From positions 1-52,138 of the forward strand of contig JAICQO010000042.1 in NCBI GenBank assembly GCA_025937835.1: 52,138 nt of DNA. The letters run 5' to 3'. Positions within the stretch are counted from its first letter, which is position 1. Every line of letters starts with the position of its first letter. The notes below the pieces were generated by a model. That model was not told where the DNA came from, made no database searches, and saw nothing but the letters and a program-made list of their open reading frames with translations. This document shows, one piece after another, positions 40,583 through 51,775 of this stretch. This DNA is from Polyangiaceae bacterium. GTDB lineage: Bacteria > Myxococcota_A > Polyangia > Polyangiales > Polyangiaceae. The translations under genes and the position numbers were made by a program.

Positions 40583-41227
40583 TCAGTCTTCCGAAGGCGG
40601 TGGGGCGCCGTAGAGCGGCATCGGCACGTTGCCGGGGTCGCGACCGCCGGTGCCAGCGGCGGGCTTACCGCCCGCTGGCTCGGCGGGCGCTCCGTAGACC
40701 GGAACCGCGAGTTGCCCGCCTGTGGAAGGCGAACCCGCGTTGGCGGTACCGCCGCGCGGCGCGATCCTGCGGCCGCCCGTCGCGCTTCCACCGCTTTCGG
40801 CGCGGTTGCCGGTGCCGCCGTTCTCGGCGCGGTTGCCCGTGCCGCCATTTTCGGCGCGGTTGCCGGTGCCGCCTCCGCCGGGATCGGGCCCGTCGAGCGT
40901 GCCGCCGAACGCCGGGGCGCCGTAAACCGGCGTCACCAGCGCGCCGCCGCTAGCTACCGGCCCGCCTCCGGTCTCGTCGGCCTCGCCACCCGCGGACTCG
41001 CCCGCGTCCCCCGTGCCGGAGTCGTCGTCGCTGTCGGAGCCGCAGCCGGCGGCCGCCGCCGCGCCGAGCATCGCGCCGAACGCCAGTGTCGCGGCGCGGC
41101 TCAGGCGTCCATTCGGCAAGACGCGCGGAGCGGGCGCCGCTGCGCGTTCTGAGTCGCAGAACGGACAGCGTGCTTCGCTTGCACGCACGTGGCGGCCGCA
41201 CTCGGGGCAAGGGGTCAGGTGATTCAT
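40583..41227 (-). CDS. Zinc-ribbon lipoprotein with three PxYGAP motifs (candidate radical SAM substrate)
   Basis: A 214-residue protein. Residues 1-30 carry a cytoplasmic-looking zinc ribbon (Cys7, Cys10, Cys21, Cys24); residues about 42-62 are a hydrophobic segment ending AAAAAGC, a possible lipobox at Cys62 after an unusually long leader. The mature part is Gly/Ser/Asp-rich and contains PVYGAP (100-105), PVYGAP (176-181) and PLYGAP (204-209), with three 9-residue GGTGNRAEN repeats between. The ATG overlaps the stop of the upstream radical SAM/SPASM gene (ATGA), so the two are made together. Bacteroidota radical SAM-associated lipoproteins carry a similar YGxP motif next to the lipidated Cys, as I recall. 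It is probably the enzyme's substrate (inference). Confidence 0.75.
   Translation of the reverse strand: MNHLTPCPECGRHVRASEARCPFCDSERAAAPAPRVLPNGRLSRAATLAFGAMLGAAAAAGCGSDSDDDSGTGDAGESAGGEADETGGGPVASGGALVTPVYGAPAFGGTLDGPDPGGGGTGNRAENGGTGNRAENGGTGNRAESGGSATGGRRIAPRGGTANAGSPSTGGQLAVPVYGAPAEPAGGKPAAGTGGRDPGNVPMPLYGAPPPSED
40793..40873 (-). repeat. 27-bp tandem repeat, three copies, in the lipoprotein gene
   Basis: Three units of 27 bp encode GGTGNRAE(N/S) at residues 119-145. The third unit differs only at the last residue. Confidence 0.9.
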
Positions 41228-42465
41228 GCGCTGTTCTCCAGGCTCTCGACGACGATTTCGAACCGCGAGTGATCGAACGGGGTTCCGGGCGCTGGCGCCA
41301 TTTGTACCAGGCGCTCGCGCTGCCCGCGCGCTTGCATTTCGAGCGCGCGGTGATGGCAATACGGGTTGTTGCCGGGCTTGCCGAAGAACACGAACGACGT
41401 CCAGGTGCAGCCCGCCATGCAGGTTTCGGCGTAATAACAGCTCCGGCAGAAGCCCCACAGATCATCGACCGTGCGGTCGCGCGTGTAGCGGAGCTGTGCC
41501 GAGCGCTCCCAGATCTCCTCCAGCGTGTGCTCCCGGATGTTGCCGCCGGTCCAGGCCTCGGTGGGCAGCGACGGACAACCCTTGATGCTGCCGTCGGCTT
41601 CGAGACCGAGCACGCCGCGACCGGCGCTGCAGGACGCCATGTGACCGAGCGGCACGTGCCCGCGCAGCGCGTGCTCGTACGGGCCGAAGTAACCGACGTT
41701 GTTTCCCGGCCAGATCAGCACGCCGAGCTCGAGCGAGCGCTGCTTCAGCTCGGCGAGCAACGGAAACACCTCGAGCAGCTCGAAGGGCTGGAGCAGCACC
41801 TCGGGCTCGTCGGCGCCGCGCCCCATCGGCACGGTCATTTGCAGTTGCCAGCTGTGCGCGCCCTCTCGCCCGAGTAGCTCGAGCAGCTCTCTCAGCTCCG
41901 GAACGCTCAGGCGATTGATCTGGGTGTTGGCGCTGACTGGGACCCCGGCCGCGCGCAGGTTCCGCAGCGCGCCGAGCGCCGATTCGAAGGAGCCGTTCAC
42001 GCCGCGCAGCCGATCGTGCGTGGCTTGCAGCCCGTCGAACGACACGCTGGCGCTCTTCAAGCCGGCCTCCTTGGCCGCGCGCGCGCGCTCCGGCGTCACG
42101 CCGCGGCCGCCCGTGGTCATGGTCGGCGTCATGCCCGAGGCCGCGATTTCCCGCACGATCTGCGTCCAGTCGTCGCGCAGGTACGCCTCGCCGCCGATCA
42201 GCGTCACTTCTTTCACGCCGAGCGCCGCCATCTGGTGCACGAGGTCGAGACACTCGTCGGTGTCGAGCTCGTCGGGCCGCGCGTGGCCGGCGCGCGAGCC
42301 GCAGTGGCGACAGGCAAGATCACACTTGAGGGTGATCTCCCAGACCGCGTAGATCGGCCGGTGGGCGCGGTCGATGTCGCGCGCCGAGTCGGCGAGCGGG
42401 ACGCGGCGCGGCCCGGGCGGCGCATCGGGGGCGATCGGCAGTGATCGCGGGCGCGGGCGCGCCAT
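41224..42465 (-). CDS. Radical SAM/SPASM enzyme, candidate peptide/lipoprotein-modifying
   Basis: A 413-residue enzyme. The radical SAM cluster motif is CDLACRHC (CxxxCxxC) in WEITLKCDLACRHCGSRAG; then come VTLIGGEAYLRDDW, an SVSFDGLQATHDRLRGV strand-helix and a C-terminal SPASM domain with auxiliary cysteines (MASCSAGRGVLGL, GSIKGCPSLP, WGFCRSCYYAETCMAGCTW, NPYCHHR). SPASM enzymes usually modify peptides or proteins. The ATG at 42465 is preferred; a GTG at 42513 is possible. Its stop overlaps the start of the zinc-ribbon lipoprotein, whose YGAP motifs are the likely target. It lies in the sulfur island but no direct link is proven. Confidence 0.88.
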   Translation of the reverse strand: MARPRPRSLPIAPDAPPGPRRVPLADSARDIDRAHRPIYAVWEITLKCDLACRHCGSRAGHARPDELDTDECLDLVHQMAALGVKEVTLIGGEAYLRDDWTQIVREIAASGMTPTMTTGGRGVTPERARAAKEAGLKSASVSFDGLQATHDRLRGVNGSFESALGALRNLRAAGVPVSANTQINRLSVPELRELLELLGREGAHSWQLQMTVPMGRGADEPEVLLQPFELLEVFPLLAELKQRSLELGVLIWPGNNVGYFGPYEHALRGHVPLGHMASCSAGRGVLGLEADGSIKGCPSLPTEAWTGGNIREHTLEEIWERSAQLRYTRDRTVDDLWGFCRSCYYAETCMAGCTWTSFVFFGKPGNNPYCHHRALEMQARGQRERLVQMAPAPGTPFDHSRFEIVVESLENSA

Positions 42466-42599
42466 CAGCTGCTCGCGATCGACGTGCGACAAAGGTCCCG
42501 GAGCCGGAGGCACGAACGGCAGTCTACGCCGCCACGCTCGCGCCGGCGAGCACGCTGCATGGCTCCGGCGGACCTACACCGGCGCTCGAGACCAGCGCG

Positions 42600-43637: not shown

Positions 43638-46007
43638 CTACCCGCCATCGACCTGGATCATGATCGGCTCTCCCTGCGCGCCCAGACGCAGGGAATGGCT
43701 GCCCGGAGTCAGCGCCAGCCGGGTCCGAAACGGCGCGCTCTGCGTCGCGACAGGTCGCCCGTCCACCAACAGAGACACGCCCGCAACCGCCGAAGCGCTC
43801 GTGACCTCGACCAGGATGTCCTGGGCGGGCGCCGCGGCGTCGAGCACGAAGCGGGCCCCGTCGCGCGGCCAGGCAATGCGCGGGGCCTCGGCGGCGACGA
43901 GGCTGTCCGCGGGGCAGCGCGGCGATGACTCGCGGGGAGCGAGCGGGCGCTGAACGGCGACCGCCCAGGCCGCGTCCCCCGAGGGGTAGTGCTCGAAAGG
44001 GCGGAGCTCCGCGTCGCGGCAGGCGGGCCCGGCGCGCAGCCCGTTCAGGGGATCGATCGCGACGAGCTGGTGCAGCGGGCAGCTTTCGACCGGCCCGCGT
44101 CCGGGCTGGAAATAGTCGAGGGCGCGATGCTGGCAGGCGGGCCCGGGCCGCGCGCCGCTCAGCGCGCAGATCTCGACCGCGACCAGGCCTTCCGTCGCCG
44201 CCAGCGGCTCGGGAGCAGCGCCGCGCATCGCCGCCGTCATCACGGCGTGAAACAACGGGCCCGCTCCGCTCACGCCGCTCGAGCGCACCATCGGCTGGCC
44301 GTCGAAGTTGCCGACCCAGACCGCCACCGTGAGCTCGCGGGTGTAGCCCACGGTCCAGTTGTCGCGAAAACCCTTCGAAGTGCCGGTTTTTACCGCCACG
44401 GGGAACGGCAGGTCGAGCACGCTCGTGCGGCCGAAGCTGTCGCTGCGCGCGGCCGGATCGGAGAGCACGCTGGTGAGCTGTCGCGCGAGCGGCCGAGCCA
44501 GCGCTCGCCGCGGGGCCGGCTGCGGCAGCTCGAGCACCCGCCCACCCGAGAGCGTGGCTCGCGACGCGTAGCGGAGCGGCAAGTACTCCCCCTCGCGCGC
44601 GAGCGTGCTGTACGCCTGCGCGAGCTCCACGAGCCGGACCTCGCCGGAGCCGAGAGCGATCGCCGCGCCGTAGTGCTGGGGGTCGCGCTCGAGTGAAGCG
44701 AAGCCGAAGCGATGCAACATCTCGAGCACCGCGCGCGGGCCGACCTGGGCCGCAGCGCGCACCGCGGGCAGGTTCAGCGAGTTTCCGAGGGCGAGCCGGA
44801 GCCGGACCGGGCCGTGCTCCTTGCCGTCGTAGTTTTCGGGCCGGTACCTGCCATGCGGCGTGTCGAGCTCGAGCGCGCGATCCGAGAGCAGCGTGGCCGG
44901 GGTCCAGCCCAGGCGCTCCATGGCGGCCGCGTACACGAACGGCTTGAGCGTCGAACCAGGCTGGCGCAACGCGAGCGCGCCGTCGTTGCCACCGAGCTCG
45001 TGACTCGCGAAATAATCTTGCGAGCCGAGGTAGGCCCGGACCTCCGCGGTCCGGTTGTCGACCACCAGCACCGAAAGCGCTGACGCGCCGAAAGCTGCGA
45101 GGCCCTCGGCTTCCCGCGCGGCGATCACCTCGAGCTCGTGCTGGAGCTCGAGATCGAGCGTGGTCTGGAGCGAGACCGGTTTTTTGCCGGCAAGCTCCGG
45201 GATCAGCTTGCCCGCTCCGAGCGCGAAGGCCAGGTGCTCGGCGCCCGCCGAGGTCGAGGAGCGCCGCACACGGAGCTCGCTCGACAGCGCCCGCTCGATC
45301 CGCTCGTCTTCGAGCGAGCCGCGCAGGCGCTCGAGCACCCGGTCGCGTCGCCGCTTCAGCCGCTCGGGGTGACGGCGCGGATCGTAGAACGACGGCCCGC
45401 GCACGAGCGCGACCAACGTCGCGGACTCCGCGAGGTCGAGCTGCTTCGCCGGCTTGTCGAAGTAGTAGCGGCTCGCGGTCTCGACGCCGAGCAGGTTCGG
45501 GCCGAACTCGACCTGGCTCAGGTACTCTTCGAGGATCCGGCGCTTGTCGAGCGAGGCTTCGATGCGCAGCGCGATCACCGCTTCTCGCAGCTTGCCCGCA
45601 AGGGTCCGCGGCCGGGGCACCACGGCGCGCGCGAGCTGCTGGGTGATGGTGCTCGCGCCGGAGACGAGCCGCCCTTCGCCGAGGGCCTGCCCGAGGGCAC
45701 GGACGATGGCCAGCGGATCGACGCCGGGGTGAAAAAAGAAGCGCCGATCTTCGGTGGCGAGCAGCGCGGGGACCAGGTCCTTGGATACCTGATCCAGGTT
45801 CACGCGCTCGCGGCGTTTGCCGTCTCGTGTGCGGAGCTCGCGCACCAGCCGGCCGTGCCGATCCAGCACGCGCAAGCTCGGTGTGGGGCCCGCGTCACCC
45901 AGAGCCTCGGGCAACGGCTCGAGCGCGACGCGCACGGCGAGCCCGAGCAGAAGGCAGCCGAGCGCTGACAGCACCCAGAGCTTCTGCCGTGAGAAGAACC
46001 GCATCAT
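43638..46007 (-). CDS. pbpC: Penicillin-binding protein 1C
   Basis: A 789-residue bifunctional peptidoglycan synthase. After a short N-terminal anchor, the glycosyltransferase domain has the catalytic ATEDRRFFFHPGVDP motif and the SGASTITQQLAR block. The transpeptidase domain has the SxxK motif (GSTLKPF), SxN (NSLNLP) and KTGT (VAVKTGTSKGFRDNW). The C-terminal extension with cysteines and a beta-sandwich (about the last 110 residues) is typical of PBP1C. The start ATG at 46007 overlaps the stop of the alpha-2-macroglobulin gene (ATGA). This operon order matches yfhM-pbpC of E. coli. Confidence 0.95.
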   Translation of the reverse strand: MMRFFSRQKLWVLSALGCLLLGLAVRVALEPLPEALGDAGPTPSLRVLDRHGRLVRELRTRDGKRRERVNLDQVSKDLVPALLATEDRRFFFHPGVDPLAIVRALGQALGEGRLVSGASTITQQLARAVVPRPRTLAGKLREAVIALRIEASLDKRRILEEYLSQVEFGPNLLGVETASRYYFDKPAKQLDLAESATLVALVRGPSFYDPRRHPERLKRRRDRVLERLRGSLEDERIERALSSELRVRRSSTSAGAEHLAFALGAGKLIPELAGKKPVSLQTTLDLELQHELEVIAAREAEGLAAFGASALSVLVVDNRTAEVRAYLGSQDYFASHELGGNDGALALRQPGSTLKPFVYAAAMERLGWTPATLLSDRALELDTPHGRYRPENYDGKEHGPVRLRLALGNSLNLPAVRAAAQVGPRAVLEMLHRFGFASLERDPQHYGAAIALGSGEVRLVELAQAYSTLAREGEYLPLRYASRATLSGGRVLELPQPAPRRALARPLARQLTSVLSDPAARSDSFGRTSVLDLPFPVAVKTGTSKGFRDNWTVGYTRELTVAVWVGNFDGQPMVRSSGVSGAGPLFHAVMTAAMRGAAPEPLAATEGLVAVEICALSGARPGPACQHRALDYFQPGRGPVESCPLHQLVAIDPLNGLRAGPACRDAELRPFEHYPSGDAAWAVAVQRPLAPRESSPRCPADSLVAAEAPRIAWPRDGARFVLDAAAPAQDILVEVTSASAVAGVSLLVDGRPVATQSAPFRTRLALTPGSHSLRLGAQGEPIMIQVDGG

Positions 46008-49000
46008 CGGACCTCGACCTGGATCACTCCGCTGCGTCCGAACGACTCCGGCGCGTACATCTCTTCGGCGCGGAGCGGGGGCACCACGAATTTGCCGAGC
46101 GTCGTGGCTCGCGCCAGGTAGCGAAAGCGGTGAATGCCCGGGCCCAGGTAATCGATGAAGAACAGCGCCCGGTCGTCGCGCAGCTCGCGCCGCGCGGCCG
46201 TCGACAGGCTGCCGTTCGCGTCTCCGTCGCAGCCGAGGCAAGCGTTGTCCACACCGGCAGCGAGCGAGGACGCGGTTGCAAGCGTGGTATCCACGGCTTC
46301 GAACCCGGCGGGCAGCGGATCGTCCACCACAACGAAGTGCCGCGCGGCCGAGGTCACGACCAGGATTTCGGAGGCCACCAATGCGCCACCCGCGAATTGC
46401 CGCTCGTCCGGGCCCTCGAGCGAGCTCGCGGCGTTCTGGAGCTCCTCGGGCGTGACGCGGTGCAGGCGCCGTTCGACGTAGAAGCCGGAGTCGAAGCCGG
46501 TCGCCGGTAGCTCCTTGCGCGCGTAGCGGAGGCGCGCCTGGTAGTGGAGCGTGCCTTCCCCGTCGCGCTCGAAAAGCAGCGGAGCGCCCGCGTGCGGCAA
46601 GAGCTTCGCGATCGGGATCGCGGTGTTCTTGGTCTGTAGCGAGCGGCCCTCGAAATCGACGGCGAAGAGCCGCTCTCCGCCCAGGCTGACCTTGGCCTCG
46701 AAATCGGGGACGGTCTTCTCGCGCTGCTTGCGGTAGGTATCGAGCGCGAGCAGCGCATAAGCCGTCTCTTGCGTGGTGCGCCAGGTGCCGCCGCTCCGGA
46801 CGTGGAGCAGCTCCCGCGCCAGATCGCCGATCAGCGCGTGCTCGGGGCGCGAACGAGCGAGCGCCATCAGCACCAGCGCCTGGGTGCGCACCGTCGAATC
46901 GAACACACGCGCGTAGGCGTCGCCCAGGTTCTCGTCGATGCTGACCCTGCCCGCGCTCACGTGCAGGTGCTGTTCGAGCTCCTGGACCAGGGTTTTTTCC
47001 GCGGTGCCGCGCTGGTTCGCGCGCACCAACGCCGAGAGCAGCAGGGCCTTGCCGAACAACGGCAGCTCCTTCCGCCGGTCGAAGACCTGGTTCATGTAGC
47101 CGACGTCCGGGTCGCCGAGCGCCGCCAGCACATCGAGTACGAAGGCCTGCGTCGCGAGGTCTTGCTCGTGGTTCGCGAGCACGCCGCGCAGGTAGGACTT
47201 GCCCGAGGTGATCACCGCTTCCGGTAGCTGGATCTTGCGGGCCTTGGCCTCCGACAGCACCCACAGTGCGTAAGCGGAGACCCAGGGGTAGGGCCGCCCC
47301 GACTCGGGCCACATCGTGAAGCCGCCGTCGCCGGTCTGGCGCGCCACGATCTCGCGCACCGTGCGCTCGATCGACGACACCGGCGTCACCGGCTGGATCC
47401 CGAACGCCGCGGACAGATCGCGCAGCGGCAGCAGCGGTAAGAGCCGGCTCGAGAGCTGTTCGGTGCAGCCGTACGGGTACTCCATCAGCGAGCCCAGCGC
47501 GGATTCGAGGCCGACGAGCGCCGTGGAGGCCACGCTGACTTCGAGCCCGCCGATGTCGCCGCGGATCCCCGTGAGCTTGCCCAGCGCTTCCGACGCCGCG
47601 CCCTCCGTCTTTCCGACGGCCGCCACCGACTCGAGCACGGTCGGCGCCGACACCGGGCGGCGGACCTCGACGCGATCGCGCGCACCACCACCACTGACCT
47701 CGAACGAGAGGCGCGCCTCGCCAGCCTGCTCGGCGCGAAACGCGAAGCGCACCTCGGCTTGCAGATCCTTGCCGAGCTTCACGCTCTTCGTCGCGGGGCC
47801 CTCCACGACGAGGCCGCTCGACTCGACGCGCACGTTCACCTCTCGGGGATCGAGCTCGCTCGTCGCGACCACGACGCCGGCCTCGACGCGATCACCCGTG
47901 CGAATGAAGCGCGGCAAGGCGGGCCGAGCCATCAGCTGCTTCCGCGCCGTCACGCTCGTGCTGCCGTAGCCGTAGTGTTCGGCGTCGCCCACGGCCACCG
48001 CAATCAGCCGGTAGGTGGTGAGCGAGTCGGGCAGCTTGAACTTCACGCTGGCCTTGCCCTGGGCGTCGGTCAGAACCCGCGGGTTGAAGTAGGCCGTTTG
48101 CCGGAAATCGCTGCGTGCCGCGGAATCACCGCCCCCGCCGCCCTCGGCGCCCTTTCCGACGCCGAGCAGGTTGGCAAGCCCGCTCGGAACGATCTTGGCG
48201 AGGGCGGCGCGCGTCTCGAGCGTGGCGACGCCCAGCGGCCGCGGCCGCGACAGCGCAAGCAGCGGATCGGGCACGCTGTACCCGGTCAGCATCAACACGC
48301 CCTCGTCGACCGCGAACACGGTGAGCTCCGAGCGCGCCGGCTTGCCCTGCTGGTCGCGAACGGCAAGCTCGACCGAGAGCTCTTCGCCGGGCGTGAGCAG
48401 CTTCTTGCTCGGGGTAAGCTCGATGCCGAGCCGGCGTGGCTCGGGGTCGATCGGGAGCTCGACGTAGCCGACGCGGTACGCGCCGCCCGGCCGCACCTCG
48501 CCCTTGCCGAGCTTCTGCACCAGATGCACCGACACGAACGCGTTCGGCGCCATCTCTTCGGTGATCTCGAGCTCGAAGCTCGGCATGCTGCCGGTGAACA
48601 GCTGCTGGCGCTGGCGCAAGACCGAGCTGCGCTCGACGCTGATGAACGCGCGCGCCTCCGGGAAGGGGGACTTCACGAGCACGCGCGCCTTGTCGCCGAC
48701 GCGATAGCTCTTCTTGTCCAGCACGAGCTCGACCTGTCCGTCGTCGCGGCCCGGAAACCGCGCCTCGCCCTGGCCGAAGACATACGCGTACGCGGCCGCC
48801 TCGATCGGGTTCTTGCGGCTGTCCTGGGCGAGCGCGCGCACGATGTAGTAGCCGCTGGCCTTGGCGGCGAGCGGGCAGGTTCCGCCCTTCTGCGTGGTCG
48901 TGACCTCGCAGGTCGCGATGGTCTGATCGAGCACTCGCGAGACCGTTTGCGGGTAGGGCCCACCGCGATCTTCGCGCGCGAAGGTCCAACGCCGCTGCAC

Positions 49001-51586
49001 GAGCTCGAGCTTGATGCGTGCCCCGGCGCGCCGCTTCCCGTCGGGCGAGACCGCGATCACCTGCGGCGCGAGGTTCGAGCTCGCCTTGGCGAAGGTCTCG
49101 GGCAGCTGCACGCCGACGTAAAACTCCCCCGGGTGAACCAGCACCGAGGCGCGGCTCGCCTGGCTCTGGCGCGACAGATCGGTGACCTCGGCGTCGATCG
49201 TCACGAGCTCGGGGCCCGATTGTTTCGGGAGCGCGAGCGGCTGCGTCAGCTGGAGCTTGCCGTCGTCGTCGAGCGGGCGCTGCTCGGCCTTCAGGTTGCC
49301 CGCGCCGATCGCGTGATCTCGCAGGTCCGAGTAGTAGACCGCCGCACCCGTCGCGAACCCTTCCGCGTTCGGAGGGCTGAAATAGGTCGGCGAACGGCTC
49401 ACGTAGTACTGCGCGGCCGCGCCCTTCATCGACGCGCCGTACAGGTACGTGCCCGCGATCGTCGACTGCAGCATGTCTCCGCGCACCAGGGCTTTGGGTG
49501 CCTCGATGCGGACCTGGAACTCGGCGGGGACGTACTCCCGGACCTCGACGCCTTCCGTGGCGGCCGGGCGATCGCCGAGCGTCGCGACCAGCTGATAGCC
49601 GCCGAGCGCGCCGGCAGCCGGGATCCTCACGTCGGCGTGAAACGTCCCGAGCTCGCTGATCGCGAGCTTTTGCTTGGTCACCTGGTCACCGGTCGGCGCG
49701 TTCAGCACGAGCTCCAGCGACTGCCCCTTGGGGATCTCGCTGCCGCGCGCGGTCTCGTGGCGCACGATGCCCTTGACGCGGATCGTGTCGCCGGGGCGAT
49801 ACACGCCGCGCTCGGTGAACAGCAACCCCTGGAGCCCGAGCGGGTTCCAGTAGTCGACCGTCACGGGCAGCTGCCACGAGGGCAGCACGTCGCGCAGGCT
49901 CTCGAAGGTCCAGTCGTTGCCCAGCGCGGCGAACACGAGGTCGCGGTGCTCGTCGTCGTATTGGAACGAGGGCACGAAATCACTGGCCGGGACGTAGACC
50001 CCGCCCGTGGAGTCGGTCTGGTAGCGCTTCGGGTTCTGGTTGAAGGAGACCTCTGCGCCGAGCACCGGCTCGGCGGTGGAGAGCCGCGTGACCCACACGT
50101 ACGAGCCGTGGCTAGAAAACTTTGCGGTCAGAGCCAGATCGCTGACCTTGGCCAGCCGCGGCGCGGGCGTGCCGTCGTAGTCGCGGGGATCGGGCGTGTA
50201 GTCGGCGACCAGGCCGAGCACGCCGAAGCCGCCGTTCGGCAGCAGGCCAAAGGGGTCGATCTGGCTCTGCACGATCGCCGTCGGCGTGGCGCCGCGCGGC
50301 AGCACCGTGCGCCGCGCCGAGGCGTGCGTGAGCACGAGCTGGCCCAGGGCGCTCTCGCTGTAGCCGCTGAACAGCCGCAACAGGTCGCTCCGGCCGAGCG
50401 GCGCCGCAACCACGGCCGCGGACTTCGCGTTCAGCGCCGCGACCGGGATCGGCTCGCGTTCGGTCGGGCGCAGCGTGCCGTCGGTGATGCCGAGCGCCAC
50501 GCGCGGGAACGGGTCCTCGAAGCTCAGCGTCGCGCTGAAATCTCGGGCCAGGGACTGACCGAACTCGTCCTTCAGCCCCTTCTGAATGGTCACGCGCGGG
50601 GTTGCGCTCATGTAGCGGCCGGGCAGCGCGAGGTGCGTCACCATCGAGTCGTTCTCGAGCCACTCCGGCCATTTTCCGGGCGCGGGCGGCGTCACGCTCA
50701 AGGCACGCTGGAGCTCGCCGAAGCGCACCGCGTTGCTGAACGAGAGCTCGATGCTGGTGTTCGGGTAGCACCGCGAAGAGTCGTCTTCGTGCGGGCAATT
50801 CGCACGCACCGAGAGCGGCTCGTAGGTCGTGAAGCGCGTGCTGAGCGGGGTGTCGGCTGCGAGCGGGCCTTCCGTGCCGACGAGGCTCGCCGGAAGCTCG
50901 AACGTGACCTCGGTCGCCAAGGGAAAGCGCTCCGCGACCTTCAAGTGGACCGTGCGCTCGTCGGCAGGGTTCTCGCGGCTGGCCGTGAAACGGCAGGCCT
51001 TGCCCTTTGCCTTCAGGACGCCGAGGCGCTGGATCGAGTCGACCGAGACGTTCTGGTTGAAATGAAGGACGATCGGCGTGGTCGGTAGCACGTCGCGGGC
51101 GCCGTTACCGGGGCTGCTATTCACGAGCTTCGGGCGCGGCGTCTGGAAGCTGAAGCGGTACGCGGTGCCGAGCGCGGAGCCGTCGAGGGCGCGCGTTTCG
51201 GCCGGGATCTCGACCTTGAACTCGGTCGCCGACGGCAGCTGACCGGACTTCGGAGCGAAGCTGATGCCGCGCGTGCCGACCCAGCGTGCGCTTCCGTCAA
51301 CCGCGGGGGTGATCTGGATCGGTGGCGGAACGGCGTCGGCCCGGTCGACGGCGCGCAGCGCTCGGTCGAACACCACGCCGATCTCGACGCCCTCGTCCAC
51401 CTGGCCCTTCGGAGCCGCGAACACCACCCGGAAGCGTCCGGCGTCGGCGTTGCCGCGCTCCGTCAGATCCGGCGCGAGCGTTCCACCCGGAGTCACCGGA
51501 GGCTTGGCCGCGTCCAAGCAAGCCACCAAGCCAATTGCCACCAGAGTCGTGAGTCGGGCCCTGCGCCCGTTCAAGTAACGAAGCAT
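46004..51586 (-). CDS. yfhM: Bacterial alpha-2-macroglobulin lipoprotein
   Basis: About 1860 residues. It traps proteases in the periplasm, probably protecting PBP1C and the envelope. The signal peptide has a lipobox (VAIGLVAC). The body is a series of macroglobulin beta domains (for example RVTIQKGLKDEFGQSLARDF and RPGDTIRVKGIVRHETARGS), a bait-like region, and the thioester motif GCTEQ in YPYGCTEQLSSRL (Cys about residue 1374), which is intact. The complement-like helical domain (TGDGGFTMWPESGRPYPW) follows. The ATG at 51586 is supported by GGGAGACAGG upstream; an in-frame ATG at 51718 would put 44 residues before the signal peptide. It is cotranscribed with pbpC. Confidence 0.95.
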   Translation of the reverse strand: MLRYLNGRRARLTTLVAIGLVACLDAAKPPVTPGGTLAPDLTERGNADAGRFRVVFAAPKGQVDEGVEIGVVFDRALRAVDRADAVPPPIQITPAVDGSARWVGTRGISFAPKSGQLPSATEFKVEIPAETRALDGSALGTAYRFSFQTPRPKLVNSSPGNGARDVLPTTPIVLHFNQNVSVDSIQRLGVLKAKGKACRFTASRENPADERTVHLKVAERFPLATEVTFELPASLVGTEGPLAADTPLSTRFTTYEPLSVRANCPHEDDSSRCYPNTSIELSFSNAVRFGELQRALSVTPPAPGKWPEWLENDSMVTHLALPGRYMSATPRVTIQKGLKDEFGQSLARDFSATLSFEDPFPRVALGITDGTLRPTEREPIPVAALNAKSAAVVAAPLGRSDLLRLFSGYSESALGQLVLTHASARRTVLPRGATPTAIVQSQIDPFGLLPNGGFGVLGLVADYTPDPRDYDGTPAPRLAKVSDLALTAKFSSHGSYVWVTRLSTAEPVLGAEVSFNQNPKRYQTDSTGGVYVPASDFVPSFQYDDEHRDLVFAALGNDWTFESLRDVLPSWQLPVTVDYWNPLGLQGLLFTERGVYRPGDTIRVKGIVRHETARGSEIPKGQSLELVLNAPTGDQVTKQKLAISELGTFHADVRIPAAGALGGYQLVATLGDRPAATEGVEVREYVPAEFQVRIEAPKALVRGDMLQSTIAGTYLYGASMKGAAAQYYVSRSPTYFSPPNAEGFATGAAVYYSDLRDHAIGAGNLKAEQRPLDDDGKLQLTQPLALPKQSGPELVTIDAEVTDLSRQSQASRASVLVHPGEFYVGVQLPETFAKASSNLAPQVIAVSPDGKRRAGARIKLELVQRRWTFAREDRGGPYPQTVSRVLDQTIATCEVTTTQKGGTCPLAAKASGYYIVRALAQDSRKNPIEAAAYAYVFGQGEARFPGRDDGQVELVLDKKSYRVGDKARVLVKSPFPEARAFISVERSSVLRQRQQLFTGSMPSFELEITEEMAPNAFVSVHLVQKLGKGEVRPGGAYRVGYVELPIDPEPRRLGIELTPSKKLLTPGEELSVELAVRDQQGKPARSELTVFAVDEGVLMLTGYSVPDPLLALSRPRPLGVATLETRAALAKIVPSGLANLLGVGKGAEGGGGGDSAARSDFRQTAYFNPRVLTDAQGKASVKFKLPDSLTTYRLIAVAVGDAEHYGYGSTSVTARKQLMARPALPRFIRTGDRVEAGVVVATSELDPREVNVRVESSGLVVEGPATKSVKLGKDLQAEVRFAFRAEQAGEARLSFEVSGGGARDRVEVRRPVSAPTVLESVAAVGKTEGAASEALGKLTGIRGDIGGLEVSVASTALVGLESALGSLMEYPYGCTEQLSSRLLPLLPLRDLSAAFGIQPVTPVSSIERTVREIVARQTGDGGFTMWPESGRPYPWVSAYALWVLSEAKARKIQLPEAVITSGKSYLRGVLANHEQDLATQAFVLDVLAALGDPDVGYMNQVFDRRKELPLFGKALLLSALVRANQRGTAEKTLVQELEQHLHVSAGRVSIDENLGDAYARVFDSTVRTQALVLMALARSRPEHALIGDLARELLHVRSGGTWRTTQETAYALLALDTYRKQREKTVPDFEAKVSLGGERLFAVDFEGRSLQTKNTAIPIAKLLPHAGAPLLFERDGEGTLHYQARLRYARKELPATGFDSGFYVERRLHRVTPEELQNAASSLEGPDERQFAGGALVASEILVVTSAARHFVVVDDPLPAGFEAVDTTLATASSLAAGVDNACLGCDGDANGSLSTAARRELRDDRALFFIDYLGPGIHRFRYLARATTLGKFVVPPLRAEEMYAPESFGRSGVIQVEVR

Positions 51587-51775
51587 CCTGTCTCCCGAGC
51601 GCTCGTCTCGAGCAACCTTCGTGCCGCCCGTAGAACCGTGCGCAGTGCCATGCCGCGCGCCCCACGGCGTGGGCTGCGCGACACACCCGAGGGGACGGGG
51701 GCCCACGCCCGGGGTCAAGGGGAATAGGCCTTCGCCTGTCAGCTATCAGCCGGTCATCGGTCGGTAGCAAGGATC

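Follow-up and report, generated by a model that had tools for sequence, protein, structure and literature searches.

Radical SAM-associated lipoproteins of the Bacteroidota carry a YGxP motif near their lipidated cysteine, and in the splicease system of Pleurocapsa the enzyme PlpX works together with a truncated recognition protein, PlpY. PlpX is a member of family IPR026482 and excises tyramine at Xaa-Tyr-Gly (PMC11002830). In nature PlpXY acts at MYG and LYG sites, and RPLYGLPI is one of the splice tags that have been published (PMC10533398); multiple splicing events per precursor are possible, and the spliceotide products have been reported as protease inhibitors (PMC10373908). The DAG-RiPPs are RiPP-lipoprotein hybrids modified by MNIO enzymes, and a 2025 preprint anticipates others (PMC12636315). 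Here we compare with these systems a gene pair found in a 52,138-nucleotide stretch of DNA from a Polyangiaceae bacterium (contig JAICQO010000042.1 of assembly GCA_025937835.1, hereafter the window), in which a radical SAM/SPASM enzyme adjoins a lipoprotein with three tyrosine-containing tags.

Organization of the gene pair

Both genes, and all features given below by coordinates, lie on the minus strand. The first (positions 41224 to 42465) encodes a 413-residue radical SAM/SPASM protein that is predicted to be a splicease-like peptide maturase; an in-frame GTG at 42513 provides an alternative start. Its stop codon and the start codon of the lipoprotein gene share an ATGA, an overlap named in the original prediction and confirmed by the coordinates. 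The CxxxCxxC motif and SPASM domain that had been claimed for the enzyme are likewise upheld by its sequence and by Pfam, where its scores exceed the gathering cut-offs for both Radical_SAM and SPASM. The radical SAM cluster motif C48xxxC52xxC55 (42301 to 42324) is invariant in alignment A2, and the SPASM domain at residues 279 to 370 (41356 to 41631), delimited by a Pfam match on residues 279 to 344 and by cysteine invariance, contains cysteines (C279, C297, C340, C343, C349, C353, and C370) that are near-invariant among 131 relatives.

The lipoprotein gene (40583 to 41227), which has homologues, encodes a precursor of 214 residues. The zinc ribbon that had been noted ahead of its membrane segment is present at residues 7 to 24 (CPECGRHVRASEARCPFC; 41156 to 41209), with Cys 7, 10, 21, and 24 arranged as CPEC..CPFC and a confident AlphaFold2 fold over residues 1 to 30 (block means of 85 to 91). 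A hydrophobic segment with a PS51257-like lipobox follows at residues 46 to 62 (41042 to 41092), Cys62 being the predicted site of lipidation. The only three tyrosines of the protein (102, 178, and 206) each lie inside a P(V/L)YGAP tag, and the tags match the positions first assigned to them exactly: PVYGAP at residues 100 to 105 (40913 to 40930), PVYGAP at residues 176 to 181 (40685 to 40702), and PLYGAP at residues 204 to 209 (40601 to 40618). The triplicated nine-residue spacer was also correctly recognized; it starts at residue 119 and runs to residue 145 (GGTGNRAEN, GGTGNRAEN, and GGTGNRAES; 40793 to 40873), and it is peculiar to the window lipoprotein. AlphaFold2 predicts the mature protein to be disordered (block means mostly 43 to 51), with a rise to block means of 65 and 77 over the last ∼14 residues, which include the third tag. 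Three or more YGxP motifs appeared in 3e-5 of shuffles of the protein's own mature region, which confirms that the tag observation is real and far above chance.

The neighbors of the pair, a YeeE-like gene and a serine acetyltransferase-like gene as judged from translation, look unrelated to it. Farther upstream of the pair, positions 43638 to 51718 of the minus strand hold penicillin-binding-protein-like and alpha-2-macroglobulin-like frames, recognized from translation only; genes of these two kinds are a common bacterial pairing.

Affiliation and distribution of the enzyme

The best NCBIfam match of the enzyme was to the splicease family TIGR04103 (511 bits; cut-off, 725 bits), whose InterPro entry we take to be IPR026482, and the second was to the GDL maturases of TIGR03913 (486.9 bits; cut-off, 591.75 bits). 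By its sequence, the enzyme is thus assigned to the clade formed by these two families, albeit below both curated cut-offs. The original prediction had used the lipoprotein pairs of the Bacteroidota for comparison, and these do not prove to be the nearest relatives: the TIGR04133 model gave the enzyme 168 bits (cut-off, 425 bits) versus the 511 bits of TIGR04103, and we rejected them as such. A quick enzyme tree placed the Nif11 and GDL enzymes among the lipoprotein-linked clades, and 58 positions are near-invariant in 131 enzymes that include the Nostoc and GDL forms. The Nostoc relative, which is 53% identical to the window enzyme, scores 853 bits to TIGR04103 and is above the cut-off; its Nif11 precursor has the C-terminus GSIALYGLPPELF, and a 71-residue open reading frame downstream occupies the place expected for PlpY. 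No PlpY gene lies beside the window pair, and one search of the same genome with the Nostoc candidate as the query, a weak test that had no positive control, returned no homologue.

The AlphaFold2 model of the enzyme (pLDDT of 85.5) aligns over residues 26 to 378 with SuiB, anSME, 5why (a sactipeptide thioether maturase), ChlB, and SkfB; no solved splicease structure was among the structure matches listed. The alignment to SuiB starts only at residue 94-95 of that protein, and the model accordingly gives no sign of a recognition domain at the N-terminus like that of SuiB.

Relatives of the enzyme at an E value of ≤1e-40 are present in 150 of 379 Myxococcota genomes, and others occur in Pseudomonadota, Acidobacteriota, and Armatimonadota, with plasmid-borne members in Nostoc, Azospirillum, Tropicibacter, and Aureibacter. 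The window genome itself encodes a second copy (C127; 63% identity), upstream of which lies a ribbon-led lipoprotein with the C-terminus IAMPYGCVWPDEELM. Tandem duplicates of the enzyme gene are found at two loci (L028 and L030, in the f1 and g18 genomes).

Tagged lipoproteins across the Myxococcota

A ribbon-led, YG-bearing protein is encoded close by at most of the 140 enzyme loci, on the same strand in 94 and on the opposite strand in 8. In 121 distinct ribbon-led lipoproteins beside enzymes, a set that is mildly selected since frames with YGxP had served to seed the leader model, 254 of the 299 mature-region tyrosines are followed by glycine (45 expected by shuffling) and 199 lie in YGxP (5.9 expected). 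The consensus at the site is P/A-X-Y-G-[A/G/x]-P-P, and the PS51257-like lipobox pattern of the window lipoprotein recurs in 108 of these homologues. The number of copies changes from protein to protein whereas the motif persists, as a check suggested with the original prediction had anticipated: there are 0 to 5 YG copies per protein, mostly 1 to 4, and at least one in 117 of 121 (38 proteins with one copy, 38 with two, 27 with three, 11 with four, and 3 with five; two of the 4 proteins with none are truncated in the fetched frame).

The association also holds at the level of whole genomes. A model of 22 lipoproteins (A1), scored against the 379 genomes with a cut-off E value of ≤1e-6, found matches in 85, and 84 of these fall among the 150 enzyme-bearing genomes, an overlap read by eye from two tables (Fisher P of ∼4e-41, a statistic that ignores genome relatedness and overstates certainty). 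Several genomes have at least nine A1 matches, so that a single set of enzymes may act on many of these proteins. XYG is present in all 18 of the sampled lipoproteins that we read at sites remote from enzyme genes, and YG accounts for 44 of their 51 tyrosines; these proteins were found via A1, which spans tag columns too, and the same bias therefore applies to them in part. The same kind of tagged lipoprotein thus recurs across the Myxococcota, often several times per genome, and the tyrosine counts together with the genome co-occurrence support the multi-site partnership of lipoprotein and enzyme that had been proposed.

Some individual proteins extend this range of architectures. One of the 18 remote lipoproteins, encoded off known enzyme contigs (L155; G349:C29), has five near-identical tandem MYGMPA units, and two ribbon-led lipoproteins (L106:2303-3010 and L170) carry the tags IAIYGMTTVMIL and VPIYGESTPMIL just ahead of an OmpA or OmpA-like domain. 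An Acidobacteriota zinc-ribbon protein encoded just upstream of a related enzyme (L042:3923-4969) has LYGPPPM and VYGPPPM together with a C-terminal membrane segment, and looks tail-anchored and not lipidated.

Tags in other scaffolds

Similar sites occur in substrates of other kinds. In Azospirillum and Aureibacter, which have enzymes of the GDL type, DUF1843 or DUF1843-like peptides bear RPYGPA, MLYGGA, and KPYGVA as well as PMYMAT and LYAAG; the Myxococcaceae substrates at L035 and L037 bear RPMYGVF, VAMYGVV, RALYGVF, and RPLYGVF; and those of Mesorhizobium and Brevundimonas bear IIYGTT, VIYGVS, and AIYGVA. The window lipoprotein itself has no Nif11- or nitrile-hydratase-like match in NCBIfam or Pfam, and it has no DUF1843 match, nor does a DUF1843 (GDL) peptide gene lie by the enzyme. 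XYG is common to unrelated scaffolds (Nif11, DUF1843-like, NHLP-like, and OmpA-fused) beside this enzyme clade, and given the interleaved tree and the 58 near-invariant positions, the economical reading would be one shared reaction.

Short linear motifs are frequent in Pro- and Gly-rich disordered surface proteins, and modification is here a prediction from sequence, such that the tags might be unmodified, with YGxP a binding or structural motif and the pairing a reflection of some different enzyme function. Both the co-occurrence in 84 of 85 genomes and the recurrence of XYG in unrelated scaffolds by the same enzyme clade argue against this explanation, which we consider very improbable.

The original prediction further held that the YGAP motif would stay fixed, and this is not borne out. 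The position two residues after tyrosine is variable, and six Nannocystis loci (L044 to L047, L052, and L072) encode, on the strand opposite the enzyme, ribbon-led lipoproteins with two or three copies of TYAGPD instead of XYG. Homologues of the window lipoprotein that lack YGAP are thus found beside the same enzyme, a situation that in part matches what the original prediction had regarded as contrary to it, while the tyrosine and proline of the tag are retained in them. In place of TYAGPD, the relatives L048 and L053 have VTYGGPD, another protein has IPIYSAAF, an XYS site (L023), and in three (L138, L139, and L146) YG immediately follows the lipidated cysteine. The tyrosine is kept, and the next residue is mostly glycine and sometimes alanine, so that the tag is XY[G/A]xP; these exceptions weaken a rule that demands XYG throughout and leave one centered on the tyrosine intact.

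Proposed reaction and its alternatives

We consider it likely that the enzyme is a splicease that excises tyramine and thereby forms alpha-keto-beta-amino acids at more than one position of the lipoprotein, with the ribbon leader removed by signal peptidase II. This reading draws on the homology to TIGR04103 as the nearest family, judged from family models and the Nostoc relative, and on the P-X-Y-G-x-P context shared with published tags. The original prediction of modified tags had missed this chemistry, tyramine excision at XYG being the reaction of the nearest characterized family. In the proposed scheme, the PlpX-like enzyme would excise tyramine at the tags of Tyr102, Tyr178, and Tyr206, with a predicted mass loss of 135.0757 Da per site and 405.2 Da for all three. 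Export would come after modification: Cys62 would be lipidated, and signal peptidase II would cut off the ribbon and the signal segment together, in which case the lipoprotein pathway would serve as the leader peptidase. The expected product is a disordered protein, anchored in the membrane, whose three alpha-ketoamide sites would be electrophilic; at the cell surface it may perhaps inhibit proteases covalently through several heads. We infer the order of these events, the docking of the ribbon, and the surface location.

The suggestion of a protease-inhibitor role draws on analogy and on the residues at X. Relative to the mature background, leucine is enriched 12-fold before the tyrosine, and arginine, lysine, and methionine are enriched ∼3.8-fold; side chains of this kind are commonly met at protease P1 positions, and the proteins may perhaps act as protease inhibitors.

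The variants at the residue after tyrosine bear on the nature of the reaction. The XYA and XYS tags, together with the XY[G/A/M] of GDL substrates, imply either that the enzymes tolerate other residues at this position or that the reaction is partly different. SPASM enzymes perform varied chemistry on aromatic residues, and this one scores below the splicease equivalog cut-off, so the same tags could undergo some other tyrosine-centered reaction, such as oxidation or a cross-link of the tyrosine ring to a nearby residue as in three-residue cyclophanes. A general cross-link from tyrosine to the C-beta at +2 is impossible since glycine occupies that position in 70 of the 254 YG sites, and the cyclophane reading was set aside on this ground; DynA, a model of known cyclophane maturases, also gives the enzyme only 52 bits. 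With the nearest characterized relatives and the tag context both fitting a splicease, we regard another tyrosine-centered reaction as unlikely.

The zinc ribbon

The ribbon is the best-conserved part of the lipoproteins, with C7, C10, R12, H13, C21, P22, F23, and C24 invariant in A1. Four related enzymes carry a similar ribbon as a fusion, three of them of the GDL type (L082, L083, and L085) and one from Tropicibacter (L084); at six other loci (L033, L035, L037, L040, L063, and L067) a small open reading frame, adjacent or overlapping, encodes such a ribbon. None of the enzymes at the 102 lipoprotein-type loci bears one. A module carried by the substrate in some systems and supplied with the enzyme in others fits a role in recognition, and a leader function for the ribbon is plausible from these patterns; in the window lipoprotein, residues 7 to 24 would probably be the recognition leader. 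Short ribbons can arise independently, and those described here need not be homologous.

PlpXY accepts tags of 10 to 13 residues inside unrelated proteins, with only some placements working (PMC10533398), and ribbons are absent from GDL-type and Nif11 substrates. The XYG tag might therefore suffice for recognition, with the ribbon serving instead in cytoplasmic retention until modification, in export, or in stability, an idea that concerns the ribbon alone and is compatible with splicing. Since no other part of the lipoproteins is as well conserved as the ribbon, and since it is fused or adjacent to several enzymes with ribbonless substrates yet never on the enzyme at lipoprotein-type loci, we find this alternative possible, though less likely than not.

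Significance and comparison with known systems

The system is set apart by lipoprotein substrates that are ribbon-led, carry multiple tags, are often dispersed through the genome, and go together with splicease-like enzymes. By analogy with characterized spliceases, Myxococcota probably display proteins whose backbone is unusual, reactive, and akin to that of protease inhibitors. As a broader and still tentative proposal, many Myxococcota may maintain a spliced lipoproteome, in which one or a few splicease-like enzymes would act in trans on many dispersed ribbon-led lipoproteins and create in each between one and five alpha-ketoamide sites that differ in their P1-like residue. The leader would be removed by signal peptidase II, and the products at the surface would serve as reactive handles or as covalent protease inhibitors with several heads. 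Over evolutionary time, the ribbon module would have passed from substrate to enzyme or the reverse. If so, backbone splicing to beta-amino acids would be routine for surface lipoprotein sets in a predatory phylum and not a rare natural-product trick, and it would have a native leader and export route. Many hypothetical lipoproteins would gain a testable function, and the group would offer ketoamide protease inhibitors of natural origin that cover many P1 residues, along with new splice tags and enzymes for protein labeling. Scott et al. reportedly found in 2022 that splicing is widespread. A literature search whose coverage lay outside that study found no published Myxococcota lipoproteins as splicease precursors; if Scott et al. 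already list them, the system would be already known.

With the PlpXY system of Pleurocapsa, the window pair shares the radical SAM and SPASM clade, XYG sites, the P-X-Y-G-x-P context, and the possibility of multi-site precursors. It differs in that the substrate is a zinc-ribbon-led lipoprotein and not a precursor of the Nif11/nitrile-hydratase type, that PlpY is not adjacent, and that the enzyme falls under the TIGR04103 cut-off. The GDL maturases (TIGR03913; 487 bits) belong to the same enzyme clade, and their substrates carry XY[G/A/M] near the N-terminus, but in those systems the ribbon is fused to the enzyme, and small DUF1843 peptides take the place of exported lipoproteins as substrates. 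The TIGR04133 systems of the Bacteroidota likewise pair a radical SAM/SPASM enzyme, here a distant relative, with a lipoprotein, and some Myxococcota lipoproteins have the tag right after the cysteine, as in the Bacteroidota; we know of no zinc-ribbon leader in the lipoproteins of that type. Finally, the window pair resembles the DAG-RiPPs in that the lipoprotein pathway would mature a RiPP-type protein, the modification being predicted in our case. The enzyme superfamily and the site of modification differ from those of the DAG-RiPPs, the substrates form multi-protein sets in the Myxococcota, and the motif by which DAG-RiPP substrates are recognized is C-terminal, in contrast to the folded ribbon that lies ahead of the signal segment in the window lipoprotein.
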